Shown: positions 6,866 to 28,609 of the stretch, piece by piece
How positions within the stretch are numbered: position 1 is the first letter of the stretch
Layout of the letters: every line of letters begins with the position of its first letter
The notes under the pieces: model-generated
The model's input: the letters and a program-made list of their open reading frames with translations, nothing else
Database searches by the model: none
What the model was told of the DNA's origin: nothing
DNA from: Gemmatimonadota bacterium
GTDB taxonomy: Bacteria > Gemmatimonadota > Gemmatimonadetes > Gemmatimonadales > Gemmatimonadaceae
Length of the DNA stretch: 34,571 nucleotides
Assembly: GCA_019510405.1 (NCBI GenBank)
Contig: JAEKKK010000118.1
Span: 1 to 34,571, forward strand
Direction: 5' to 3'
Translations under genes and position numbers: made by a program

Positions 6866-8752
6866 CTATCGCGCGGCGGGCGCCGCGGCGGTGGACTGCG
6901 GCTGCGTCATCGTCTCGGGATTGAGCGCACGGTCCAGCTCCTCGCGCGTCATGAGGCCACGCGACAGGACGAGCTCGTACACGCCGCGGCCGCTCGCCAG
7001 CGCCTCGCGAGCGATCTCGGTGGCGGTGTCGTAGCCGAGCACCGGCACGAGCGCCGTGATGATCCCCACGGAACGCTCGACGAACTGACGCATCCGGTCG
7101 GGATTGGCCGAGATACCCTCGACACACCGCTCGCGGAGCACGACGCAGGCGTTGGTGAGCGAGAAGATGCCGGCGAGCAGCCGGAAAGCGATCACCGGCT
7201 CGAACACGTTGAGCTGCAGCTGGCCCGCTTCGGCGGCGATCGTCACGGTCAGGTCGCCCCCGATGACGTCGAAGCACACCTGGTTCACGACCTCGGGGAT
7301 CACCGGATTCACCTTGCCGGGCATGATCGACGAGCCGGGCTGCATGGCGGGGAGATCGATCTCGCCCAGGCCGGCGCGCGGCCCCGACGCCAGGAGCCGC
7401 AGGTCGTTGCAGATCTTGGAGAGCTTCACCGCACACCGTTTCAACACGCCGCTCAACTGCACGAACGCTCCGGTGTCGGCGGTCGCCTCGACAAGGTCGG
7501 GGGCGGTGATCAGCTCGAGCTTCGTGATGCGCGAGAGATGCTTGCGCACCGCTTCGGCGTAGCCGGCGGGCGCCGTGATCCCCGTGCCGATCGCCGTCGC
7601 ACCCATGTTGATCTCGCGGATCAGGGCCTGTGCCTCCTCGAGGCGCTGCACGTCCTCGAGCATGGTGTGCCCGAACGCGGTGAACTCCTGCCCGAGCGTC
7701 ATCGGCACCGCGTCCTGGAGCTGGGTGCGGCCCATCTTGATGAACGGCGAGAACTCGTCGCCCTTGGCGAGGAACGCGGCGGCGAGCTCGCTCATCGCGC
7801 GGCGGAGCTCCTCGATCTGCGAGTGCAGCGCCAGCTTCATCGCCGTCGGGTAGACGTCGTTGGTGGACTGGCTGAGGTTGACGTGGTTGTTCGGGTGGAC
7901 GAACTGATACTCGCCGCGCGCGCGCCCCGAGAGCTCGAGCGCGCGGTTGGCGATGACCTCGTTCGCGTTCATGTTCGTCGACGTACCGGCACCGCCCTGG
8001 ATCATGTCGACGATGAAGTGCTCGTGGTGCCGGCCGCCGCGGATCTCGCGCGCCGCGCGCGCGATGAGATCGGCGGTCTCCTGGGGAAGGAGCCCGAGCT
8101 CGGCGTTCGCCAGCGCGGCGGCCTCCTTCACCGCGGCGAGCGCCTCGATGAGCGAGGTGAACTCGCGCAGCGGCACGCCGGTGATCGGGAAGTTCTCGAG
8201 CGCGCGAAGCGTCTGCACGCCGTAGAGCGCGTCGTCGGGCACCTCGCGCTCGCCGAGGAGGTCGTGCTCCACGCGCACGTGCCGGCCCCCGAACCCCAGC
8301 GCGCGTCCGCGGCCGACCATCGTGGCGTCCACCGCGGAGAGCCGCTGCGAGATCGCACGCGCCGCGCGGCCGACGAGCGCCGCATACAGCGTCGGCGTCT
8401 CGCGGATCATCTCGGCGACCTGCTCGCGCGAGATCTCCAGCACCGAGGTGTCGGTGAGCGCCCGCGCGGTCGTTCCGTGCGTCGAGTCGTCGAGGAGGAG
8501 CCCTTCGCCCACGCCCTCGCCGGCGCCAAGGGTGGCGAGTCGGATGGGCCGGCCGTTGATCTGTTTCTCGATCGCCACCGCACCACTCACGACGATCGCG
8601 AGGAGCGTTCGCTCGGTGCCCTCGGTGAAGAGCAGGGCATCGCACTCGTACTCCGCCGGCTTGACGAGCCGTGACAGCTGATGGAGGGCGGTGTCGGTGA
8701 GACCTTCGAGGAAGGAAAGGCTGCGGAGCTGTTCGCGGATCGTCGTGGACAT
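6866..8752 (-). CDS. aspA: Aspartate ammonia-lyase with N-terminal cyclic-nucleotide-binding domain
   Basis: 628-residue fusion. Residues about 10-135 form a CNB/CAP-effector-like domain (SLSFLEGLTDTALHQLSRLV, then LLAIVVSGAVAIEK, and a GEGVGEGLLLDD phosphate-cassette-like turn). Residues about 160-612 are a class II fumarase/aspartase lyase with all signatures: GGAGTSTNMNANEV (253-266), NLSQSTNDVYPT (292-303), MGRTQLQDAVPM (340-351) and the GSSIMPGKVNP loop (473-483). The downstream PEVVNQVCFDVIGG and AAEAGQLQLNVFEPVI resemble aspartase more than fumarase, so the expected reaction is L-aspartate to fumarate plus ammonia. The CNB half suggests control by a nucleotide ligand, but binding is not shown. 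The tail is Ala/Gln-rich. No Shine-Dalgarno is seen before the ATG. Upstream of pncB in a likely operon. Confidence 0.92.
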   Translation of the reverse strand: MSTTIREQLRSLSFLEGLTDTALHQLSRLVKPAEYECDALLFTEGTERTLLAIVVSGAVAIEKQINGRPIRLATLGAGEGVGEGLLLDDSTHGTTARALTDTSVLEISREQVAEMIRETPTLYAALVGRAARAISQRLSAVDATMVGRGRALGFGGRHVRVEHDLLGEREVPDDALYGVQTLRALENFPITGVPLREFTSLIEALAAVKEAAALANAELGLLPQETADLIARAAREIRGGRHHEHFIVDMIQGGAGTSTNMNANEVIANRALELSGRARGEYQFVHPNNHVNLSQSTNDVYPTAMKLALHSQIEELRRAMSELAAAFLAKGDEFSPFIKMGRTQLQDAVPMTLGQEFTAFGHTMLEDVQRLEEAQALIREINMGATAIGTGITAPAGYAEAVRKHLSRITKLELITAPDLVEATADTGAFVQLSGVLKRCAVKLSKICNDLRLLASGPRAGLGEIDLPAMQPGSSIMPGKVNPVIPEVVNQVCFDVIGGDLTVTIAAEAGQLQLNVFEPVIAFRLLAGIFSLTNACVVLRERCVEGISANPDRMRQFVERSVGIITALVPVLGYDTATEIAREALASGRGVYELVLSRGLMTREELDRALNPETMTQPQSTAAAPAAR

Positions 8753-21613: not shown

Positions 21614-22991
21614 TTTCTTCGCTGCGCGGTGTTACGCGCTGGCGACCGCCGAGTGCCGGCGCGTTCCGGTCGACGCCGCGTTGCGGAGGTGCCGGTCGAT
21701 CGACGCGGCCGCGTCGCGTCCCTCGCGGATCGCCCACACGATGAGCGAGGCGCCGCGGCGCATGTCGCCCGCCGCGAACACGCCGGGGATGTTCGTGCGG
21801 TACTGTGCGTCGGTCGACACCGCACCGCGCGGGGAGATCGTCACGCCGAGGTCGGAGAGCAACCCTTCCTCGCGCACCCCCGTGAATCCCATCGCCAGCA
21901 GCACGATGTCGGCATCGAGGGTGAATCCACTGCCGCTGACCTCGACGAACTGCGGGCCGTTGGCGCCCTGCTGGAGGTCGACACGCACCGCGTGCAGCTT
22001 CTGCACCCGGCGGCCTTCGCCCGACAACTCGGTCGTTGAGACGCTCCAGTCGCGCTGCGCGCCTTCCTCGTGCGCGTGGCTGGTGCGCAGCTTCATCGGC
22101 CACTGCGGCCACGGCGTGGACGCCGCGCGTTCCTTCGGCGGCTCCGGGAGCAGCTCGAACTGCGTCACCTCGGTCGCGCCCTGCCGATGGGCGGTGCCGA
22201 TGCAGTCGGAGCCGGTGTCGCCGCCGCCGATGACGACGACGCGCTTGCCACCGGCCCAGATCGCGCTCGCGTCGCCGATCGCGTCGCCGGCGACGCGGCG
22301 GTTCTGCTGGGTGAGGTAGTCCATGGCGAGGTGCACGCCGCCCAGCTCGCGGCCAGGCACGCGCAGGTCGCGCGCCTTCTGCGCGCCGCCGGCGAGCAGC
22401 ACGGCGTCGAACTCGTCGCGCAGCTGGGTGACGTGGAGATCGCGGCCGACCTCGACGTTCGTCTCGAAGTGCACGCCCTCGGCCTCCATCTGGCGGAGGC
22501 GGAGCTCGAGTACTTCCTTCTCCAGCTTGAAGTCGGGGATGCCGTAACGGAGCAATCCACCGATGCGATCGTCCTTCTCGAACACGACGACGGCGTGGCC
22601 AAGACGGCGCAGCTGCTGCGCCGCGGCGAGCCCCGCGGGGCCGGAGCCGATGATCGCGACGCGGAAGCCGGAGTCGGGCGCGCCGGCGGACGGCACGACC
22701 CAACCCTCGGAGAACGACTTGTCGGCGATCGCCTGCTCGATGTTGCGGATCGCGACGGGCTGCTCGATCAGGCCGAGCACGCACGCCGACTCACAGGGCG
22801 CCGGGCAGAGGCGCCCCGTCAGCTCGGGGAAGTTGTTCGTCGCGTGCAGCGCGAGCGACGCATCCTTCCAGCGACCCTGCTGGACGAACGCGTTCCACTC
22901 CGGGATGACGTTCTGGACGGGGCAGCCGGTGTCGCCCTGACAGAAGGGCACGCCGCAATCCATGCAGCGTGCACCCTGCGTCCGGAAATGC

Positions 22992-27620
<4,629 letters not shown>

Positions 27621-27665
27621 GTCCAGGCGCTCCCTGCGTCTGTGCGCGGCTCACTTACGAAGAAG

Positions 27666-27727
27666 CCCCTCCTAACCGCTGGTCAGGAGGGGCCGTTGCA
27701 CCATTCGGTACCCGCTAGCTCCTAACC
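27666..27727 (-). promoter_or_regulatory. Terminator/antiterminator pair in the gltB leader (putative attenuator)
   Basis: On the minus strand, CCCCTCCTGACC (27692-27681) pairs with GGTTAGGAGGGG (27677-27666) across a three-base loop, giving a 12-bp hairpin with one G-U pair followed by CTTCTTCG. An earlier GGTTAGGAG (27727-27719) can instead pair with CTCCTGACC from the first arm: nine pairs, one of them G-U. The two foldings exclude each other. The loop of the alternative fold can itself form GTACC/GGTGC. The earlier arm contains the TAG stop of the leader peptide. The hairpin lies 46 nt before the gltB ATG. The U-tract is imperfect. Confidence 0.55.
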
Positions 27728-27814
27728 CCTCGATTCCTCGCGCGAAATGGCGGCCTTGCGATTCGGCAAGGTCGTCGGAATGGCGGCGATAATCGATACC
27801 AGGGAAGAGCGCAT
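27722..27814 (-). CDS. Putative 30-residue leader peptide of gltBD
   Basis: ATG (27814-27812) to TAG (27724-27722), 30 codons, inside the gltB leader about 50 nt after the predicted transcript start. The peptide is rich in branched-chain residues early (LVSIIAAIPTTL, positions 5-16) and has adjacent Glu26-Glu27 a few codons before the stop. The stop codon lies within the antiterminator arm, so a ribosome that finishes the peptide would block that arm and favour the terminator, while one stalled earlier would leave it free. No clear Shine-Dalgarno is seen before the ATG (CGACCGAAAATG), which is the main weakness. Whether it is translated is unknown. Confidence 0.4.
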   Translation of the reverse strand: MRSSLVSIIAAIPTTLPNRKAAISREESRG

Positions 27815-27872
27815 TTTCGGTCGGTCGTGGCGGATCGCTCGCGGACGAAACTGCGAGGTGGCGCGCTCACTC

Positions 27873-27901
27873 AGAGTATGACCTCCGGGGGGCGCTGTCA
27901 A
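27873..27901 (-). promoter_or_regulatory. Consensus-like sigma-70 promoter of gltBD
   Basis: A perfect -35 TTGACA (27901-27896) and a -10 TACTCT (27878-27873) are separated by 17 nt. It is the best housekeeping promoter match in the window. Predicted transcription starts near 27866, giving a leader of roughly 245 nt before gltB, which is unusually long for this window. Confidence 0.8.
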
Positions 27902-27964: not shown

Positions 27965-28609
27965 CTACCGGGGAGAGACCTCGAGTCGATTGCCAACGAC
28001 ACGAACAATGACGTGAGTGAGGTCGGCTACGATGAGCGCCGCCGGCTCCAGCTCCTCCGCCTGATGGGTCGTGGCGAGGCCGAGCAGCTGCATGCCGGCG
28101 GCGCGTGCCGCAGCGGCGCCGGCGGGGGCGTCCTCCACCACCAGGCAGTCGGCGGGGGCGAAGCCCAGTTCGGCCGCCCCTTTAAGGTAGGCCTCCGGGT
28201 CGGGCTTGCCCCGGCTGATCGACTCGGCGGTGACCATCACCCGCGGGATCGGGACGCCGGCGGCGACCAGACGAGCCGTCGCCACCGGCCGCAGCCCCGA
28301 GGTGACGATCGCCCACCGGTCGGCTGGGAGCGCGCTCACGAGTGCCCGTGCACCCGGGATCTCAACAACGTCGGCGTTGTCGGTCGTCTCGTCGGCGACG
28401 AGGGTGGCGAGCTCGGACTCGGCGTCCAGCTCGGGGCGGACCGACCGGATGGTGTCGATGGCCCGGCGGCCGTGGACGCGCGGCAGGAGCCACTCGGGCT
28501 CGAGGCCGACGCGCCGGGCCCAGGCGCTCCACGCTCGGTTGACGCTGGGAGTGGAGTCGGCGAGGACGCCGTCGAGGTCGAAGAGAATGGCAGCGGCGAT
28601 CAGCGGCAT
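27965..28609 (-). CDS. HAD-superfamily phosphatase (PGP/GPP-like)
   Basis: 214-residue haloacid-dehalogenase-type hydrolase. Motif I is FDLDG with nucleophile Asp11 and Asp13; motif II is VTSG; motif III/IV appears as SRGKPDPEAYLKGAAELG and VVEDAPAGAAAARAAGM. The inserted α-helical cap lies at about 20-80. Closest in style to phosphoglycolate, glycerol-3-phosphate or sugar phosphatases of subfamily IA; the substrate cannot be read from sequence. The start is placed at ATG 28609, 11 residues before the nucleophile. The longer frame upstream overlaps the preceding gene. It follows the lipoprotein gene by 23 nt and is the last gene of the kup cluster. Confidence 0.87.
   Translation of the reverse strand: MPLIAAAILFDLDGVLADSTPSVNRAWSAWARRVGLEPEWLLPRVHGRRAIDTIRSVRPELDAESELATLVADETTDNADVVEIPGARALVSALPADRWAIVTSGLRPVATARLVAAGVPIPRVMVTAESISRGKPDPEAYLKGAAELGFAPADCLVVEDAPAGAAAARAAGMQLLGLATTHQAEELEPAALIVADLTHVIVRVVGNRLEVSPR

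Follow-up and report, generated by a model that had tools for sequence, protein, structure and literature searches.

The stretch of DNA analysed here (the window, 34,571 nt) stems from a soil Gemmatimonadota bacterium whose assembly comprises 3.74 Mb in 327 contigs and is 77% complete; MAGs of Gemmatimonadetes/Gemmatimonadaceae are its nearest named relatives. On the minus strand it carries gltB, encoding the large subunit of glutamate synthase (22992-27620, ATG at 27620; NCBIfam NF008730, 1833 bits, and Pfam GOGAT domains), and gltD, encoding the small subunit (21632-23110; TIGR01317, 661 bits). The gltBD identity assigned to these genes in an earlier reading of the sequence alone (the sequence-only reading) is thus borne out by NCBIfam/TIGR and Pfam profile matches. 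The true start of gltD is probably located downstream of the annotated one, past the end of gltB. Upstream of the gltB leader, the minus strand also carries a HAD-family gene with its end at 27965. The segment 27918-27960, beginning with CATCCCCTCATCCCCGCACCCTCGCATCGCCG and lying directly upstream of the gltB promoter, is a dispersed repeat with 11 partial copies elsewhere in the genome (82-100% identity over 23-43 bases). Elsewhere in the window (6866-8752, minus strand) lies an unusual fusion: an aspartate ammonia-lyase extended at its N terminus by a segment (residues 5-132) with a match to part of the model for the family 2B encapsulin shell protein.

The gltB promoter consists of a -35 element TTGACA (27896-27901) and a -10 element TACTCT (27873-27878) separated by a 17-nt spacer, present on the minus strand as claimed in the sequence-only reading. 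A consensus promoter/terminator scan of the region gave no match at the scan thresholds; the promoter is unlisted there because TACTCT agrees with the sigma-70 -10 consensus at only three of six positions. The leader open reading frame, MRSSLVSIIAAIPTTLPNRKAAISREESRG, spans 30 codons from the ATG at 27814 to a TAG at 27722 (27722-27814, minus strand), and its stop codon indeed lies inside GGTTAGGAG. No Shine-Dalgarno-like sequence is found upstream of the window's leader ATG. With a 5' UTR of about 50 nt, this leader is not leaderless, unlike the apparent arrangement of his leaders. In several leaders of gltB in family f2 (L026, L033, L115, L225) and of his genes (L209, L211), the reading frame starts a few bases past the apparent -10 element (for the short distance, see e.g. 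GCATAATAAT...ATG), which suggests that many leader peptides of these two groups may be leaderless.

As in the trp attenuator, four arms can be drawn in the gltB leader, all on the minus strand. Arm 1 (GCTCTTCCCT, 27801-27810), not mentioned in the sequence-only reading, is located at the start of the reading frame and can pair with arm 2 at 27729-27718 in the minimum-energy fold of the ribosome-free leader. Arm 2 (GGTTAGGAG, 27719-27727) overlaps the TAG stop and forms the 5' arm of the putative antiterminator; arm 3 (GCCCCTCCTGACC, 27681-27693) can serve as partner of either arm 2 or arm 4; and arm 4 (GGTTAGGAGGGGC, 27665-27677) is the 3' arm of the predicted terminator. A second copy of GGTTAGGAG, expected 3' of GCCCCTCCTGACC, is present at 27677-27669 within arm 4. 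The antiterminator comprises 9 bp between GGTTAGGAG (27727-27719) and CTCCTGACC, with an energy of -22.6 kcal/mol for the segment from arm 2 to arm 3. The terminator hairpin, earlier described as a 12-bp structure, exists, with its stem corrected to 13 bp and a loop of 3 nt (-25.6 kcal/mol). An intrinsic terminator is accordingly predicted between leader frame and gltB, albeit with a weak U tract (TTCTTCGT, 27657-27664) that is interrupted (UUCUUCGU) and places the window's terminator outside a simple terminator scan; most leader-carrying relatives possess stronger U tracts than the window. The whole leader folds no more stably than shuffled sequences (z -1.38), and together with the empty scan this makes single-sequence statistics alone insufficient for claiming an attenuator.

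The consequences of leader translation were modelled by ribosome occlusion with a downstream footprint of 13 nt. The probability of pairing between arms 2 and 3 is 0.97 or more as long as the A site falls on codons 6-25, drops to 0.89 at codon 26 and 0.54 at codon 27, and is about 0 from codon 28 through the stop, so that finished translation favours the terminator and an upstream stall favours read-through. The following mechanism is proposed. Transcription would start about 50 nt upstream of the leader ATG (27814), with a ribosome trailing the RNA polymerase along the 30-codon leader. A ribosome reaching the UAG would cover arm 2, leaving arms 3 and 4 to pair, and transcription would stop near 27660. 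If charged tRNA is short, a ribosome may stall at one of codons 6-25; arms 2 and 3 would then pair, allowing read-through into gltBD. Judged by the leaders of relatives, charged Asn-tRNA would be the likeliest signal; Ile/Leu(/Val) codons would add to it, and Glu and Gln would go unread.

The closest relative is QHVE01000039.1 (L009), whose GltB is 90% identical to that of the window. Both promoter hexamers and the spacer length are kept there (TTGACA identical), and the next 50 nt have diverged. From the ATG of the leader frame to the U tract, arm 4 included, the two sequences are nearly identical, with four substitutions, and divergence resumes beyond. This pattern of flanking divergence defines the conserved unit as exactly ATG to terminator.

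Upstream regions of gltB were further gathered from the family, class and order. Ahead of gltB, 61 leaders representing 29 genus-level groups have a short reading frame comparable to that of the window and a terminator-like hairpin, most of them with a recognisable promoter. The layout is shared and the sequences differ among families, with terminators built on GGCCCGCTCC, CCTCTC, GCCCCTCCTGACC and others. Each leader fits its own terminator: the mean helix score is 21.75 compared to 17.42 +/- 0.58 once the terminators are permuted (0 of 20,000 permutations reached it, and likewise 0 of 20,000 without family f2), and inside f2, where terminators are alike, P is 0.013; these statistics, like those on Asn below, ignore phylogeny in part. 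Such self-specific leader-terminator pairing amounts to covariation between entire arms. A comparison of gltB upstream regions, of the kind proposed as a check in the sequence-only reading, shows that position of the reading frame, overlap with the stop codon and composition are kept and that the arms co-vary. The mutually exclusive antiterminator and terminator hairpins postulated in that reading are supported by this self-specific complementarity and by the occlusion model.

Individual loci deviate from this picture. Self-specific pairing is not seen individually in L039, L041, L042, L010 and L060, the antiterminator is weak or undetected by the automatic rule in L019, L039, L041 and L013, and no attenuator was found upstream of gltB in other lineages, e.g. 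g22, g24, g4 and f7/g81. All 11 loci added after the hypothesis had been formed display leader, terminator and Asn. A test of duplex energy between leader and terminator, with shuffled leaders as control, lacked discrimination, since the arms had been truncated and shuffles rich in G+C pair well; the helix test with permuted terminators took its place. Within genera, substitution rates by codon position (0.225, 0.212 and 0.259) show a slight third-position excess, which is weak evidence, and the comparison of gap lengths is partly trivial, as both sequences are whole reading frames.

Predicted attenuators of the same layout precede biosynthetic genes in the same genomes. In the window's genome, the hisG leader encodes MSITGVHHHAHAHHGQTGRGETRMHG, containing HHHAHAHH (L209, G000:C210), and the leuA leader encodes MQHQSVLLLSSALGRIIIIGRGISCMGGRTE with an LLL...IIII pattern (L264, G000:C80). 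Across the clade, hisG leaders combine the layout of the gltB leaders with His runs, the His codons lying mainly at -11 to -3 relative to the antiterminator arm, and leuA leaders carry Leu/Val/Ile runs. Since his and leu leaders share this layout, ribosome-mediated attenuation is very likely in regular use in the window's bacterium and its clade. No attenuator was detected in the clade genomes upstream of ilvB and trpE, nor upstream of asnS and asnB-like genes. A second leuA-like gene, with a weaker match to TIGR00973 and possibly encoding a citramalate synthase, is preceded by Ile-rich leaders (L268, L269 and L271 in G038, G048 and G326; e.g. MHRHAEPIRGCIRIIRPIRLPREAAC), which suggests that this paralogue may have a separate isoleucine attenuator.

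The computation thus provides the elements of an attenuator, their exclusive pairing, conservation, self-specific complementarity, an enrichment of Asn and his and leu counterparts in the genome. On this comparative basis, the gltBD leader probably functions as a ribosome-mediated (leader-peptide) transcription attenuator, with an estimated probability of about 0.8 to 0.85. Attenuation of the trp/ilv type, as put forward in the sequence-only reading, finds support in the comparative evidence and in the his and leu attenuators of the same design.

What sets gltB leaders apart is asparagine, a residue that the sequence-only reading had passed over. Leader bodies, trimmed of the start codon and the final eight codons, contain 9.0% Asn, versus 2.7% in the proteins of the window and 1.5% and 1.2% in the two alternative frames. 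Asn occurs in 45 of 48 leaders, where 18 would be expected. When each genus was represented by a single leader and the null followed position-specific base composition, 37 Asn were observed against 16.2 expected and 24 Lys against 11.4, and Ile, Leu and Val were near expectation. When the first three codons were dropped in addition to the trimming, Asn was found in 52 of 61 gltB leaders and made up 81 of 948 residues, compared to 3 of 413 in the leaders of his and leu genes (P 4e-10 by Fisher's test, which takes no account of phylogeny). Of the 28 leaders in family f2, 20 place Asn 5-9 codons ahead of the arm (shuffles, 10.6 +/- 2.4), inside the span of His control codons in his leaders (-11 to -3), and AAT:AAC is 20:4 at this control position versus 11:17 elsewhere in the leader. 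It is plausible, at somewhat short of even odds, that Asn represents the main signal across the clade. For this particular strain the same assignment is more tentative. The window's leader, devoid of any amino-acid run, contains one Asn, 12 codons before the arm; this is codon 18 (AAT, 27761-27763, minus strand), a candidate control codon in view of the occlusion model, in which a ribosome with its A site there leaves the antiterminator free (P 0.98), and of the Asn enrichment in relatives.

A branched-chain signal acting on the same attenuator, in this strain by stalling at the leader's Ile codons, had been one suggestion of the sequence-only reading; it is supported in part, and rather unlikely as the principal input. 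The window's leader contains four Ile codons, of which three are ATT, a rare codon in the background (ATT:ATC of 18:235), and codon 23 (ATT, 27746-27748, minus strand), seven codons before the antiterminator arm, is an alternative candidate for the control codon in view of the occlusion model and of the positional profile among relatives. All 28 leaders of f2 have Ile, Leu or Val 5-9 codons ahead of the arm (shuffles, 20.0 +/- 2.2), and these residues make up 50-57% of codons -9 to -7, with Asn at 14-36%; Asn often stands beside Ile, Leu or Val in gltB leaders. Clustering at the control position therefore speaks for the suggestion, as do the modest Ile-rich leaders of the leuA paralogue, whereas the overall content speaks against it: Ile/Leu/Val constitute 25.6% of gltB leader bodies versus 52.8% in the leuA leaders of the clade, exceed position-specific base composition only slightly, and leave the recurrent Asn unexplained. 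In the f2 genomes G038 (C5), G411 (C28) and G048 (C24), gltB and leuA are divergent and about 0.6 kb apart, with ilvB adjoining leuA in G038 and G048. This divergence in at least three f2 genomes fits some coupling to branched-chain synthesis.

A switch operated by a metabolite, a tRNA (T-box) or an RNA-binding protein, in which the reading frame would be incidental, is improbable. It would agree with a leader that lacks a Shine-Dalgarno sequence and with the glutamine riboswitches and gltD motif that precede glutamate synthase genes in other bacteria (PMC8632094). Among 4227 Rfam models, neither T-box nor any other curated RNA family matched at gathering score, and the search to E 10 returned one chance match, to a family other than T-box. 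The sequence varies too much among relatives for a common aptamer, while the reading frame maintains its position, stop-codon overlap and composition, and such a switch would leave the in-frame enrichment of Asn without explanation.

Still less probable is a reading of glutamate (or glutamine) through the Glu-Glu near the end of the peptide, as the sequence-only reading had alternatively considered. Glutamate is the direct product of glutamate synthase, the two Glu residues occupy codons 26-27, and a stall at codon 26 leaves the antiterminator mostly free (P 0.89). Both residues are nevertheless depleted in leader bodies, Glu about fourfold (12 observed, 48.6 expected) and Gln about twofold (11 observed, 26.7 expected), the second Glu of the window is replaced by Gly in L009, and no relative shows Glu runs, so that glutamate sensing is not supported. 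Finally, it is very hard to credit that the hairpin merely terminates upstream transcription, with reading frame and repeat coincidental: the HAD-family gene on the same strand does end at 27965, but a conserved promoter lies between it and the hairpin, the hairpin is situated between promoter and gltB, and the layout recurs with co-varying arms in 29 genus-level groups.

An attenuator of glutamate synthase that reads asparagine, assisted by branched-chain codons, would gauge nitrogen assimilation by tRNA charging for downstream nitrogen products instead of Glu or Gln; this more specific interpretation is tentative, with the odds somewhat against it. The rationale for controlling glutamate synthase by Asn is not obvious. 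As a speculation, glutamate may be so abundant that Glu-tRNA would be a poor alarm, and amino acids deriving their nitrogen from Glu or Gln might be better proxies. It was also considered that charging of Asn-tRNA could report on glutamine if Asn-tRNA were synthesized via GatCAB only. This idea is weakened by an asnS-family gene, whose score exceeds the curated cut-off in 46 of 51 genomes, that of the window among them; gatB is present as well. Given the asnS-family gene, tRNA-dependent amidation provides no simple link between Asn and gltB.

If true, the proposed attenuator would extend translation-coupled attenuation beyond the pathways of amino-acid end products to the point where nitrogen assimilation begins; for the phylum concerned, no attenuator literature was found. 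It would also constitute a case of indirect sensing, with almost no codons for Glu and Gln themselves and instead codons of amino acids derived from these two. For comparison, the genomes provide a ready set of his, leuA and gltB leaders. The literature searched on gltB attenuation, on leader peptides in Gemmatimonadetes and on asparagine in connection with glutamate synthase or attenuators, mostly open papers, so that absence is unproven, contained no precedent: neither an attenuator with Asn control codons nor a leader-peptide attenuator of gltB was encountered, in agreement with the sequence-only reading, which knew of no such description. The mechanism is that of a classical leader-peptide attenuator; its target gltB and the recurrent Asn codons are new to the literature searched.

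Known control systems of glutamate synthase resemble the gltB leader in part. The glutamine (glnA) riboswitch and the gltD motif, which precede glutamate synthase genes (PMC8632094), are likewise cis-regulatory RNAs, but of the aptamer type, whereas the gltB leader has no Rfam match. The E. coli gltBDF operon, under control of Lrp, IHF, Crp and ArgR (PMC1784095), is the same operon with amino-acid-linked control, yet it is governed by proteins that act at the promoter, and that paper uses neither "attenuation" nor "leader". The closest likeness is found in amino-acid biosynthesis. The his attenuators, both of hisG in the clade and of enterobacterial his, share with gltB the promoter, the short reading frame, its 3' part lying over the antiterminator arm, the terminator and similar distances between these elements; they differ in carrying a run of the pathway's own product, whereas those of gltB lack a long run and are poor in Glu and Gln codons. 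The leuA/ilv attenuators of this genome, of Actinobacteria (PMC1262725) and of M. tuberculosis ilvB1 (PMC13236596) follow the same architecture and logic, but half of the residues in leuA leaders are Ile, Leu or Val compared to a quarter of those in gltB leaders, in which Asn is the distinctive residue.
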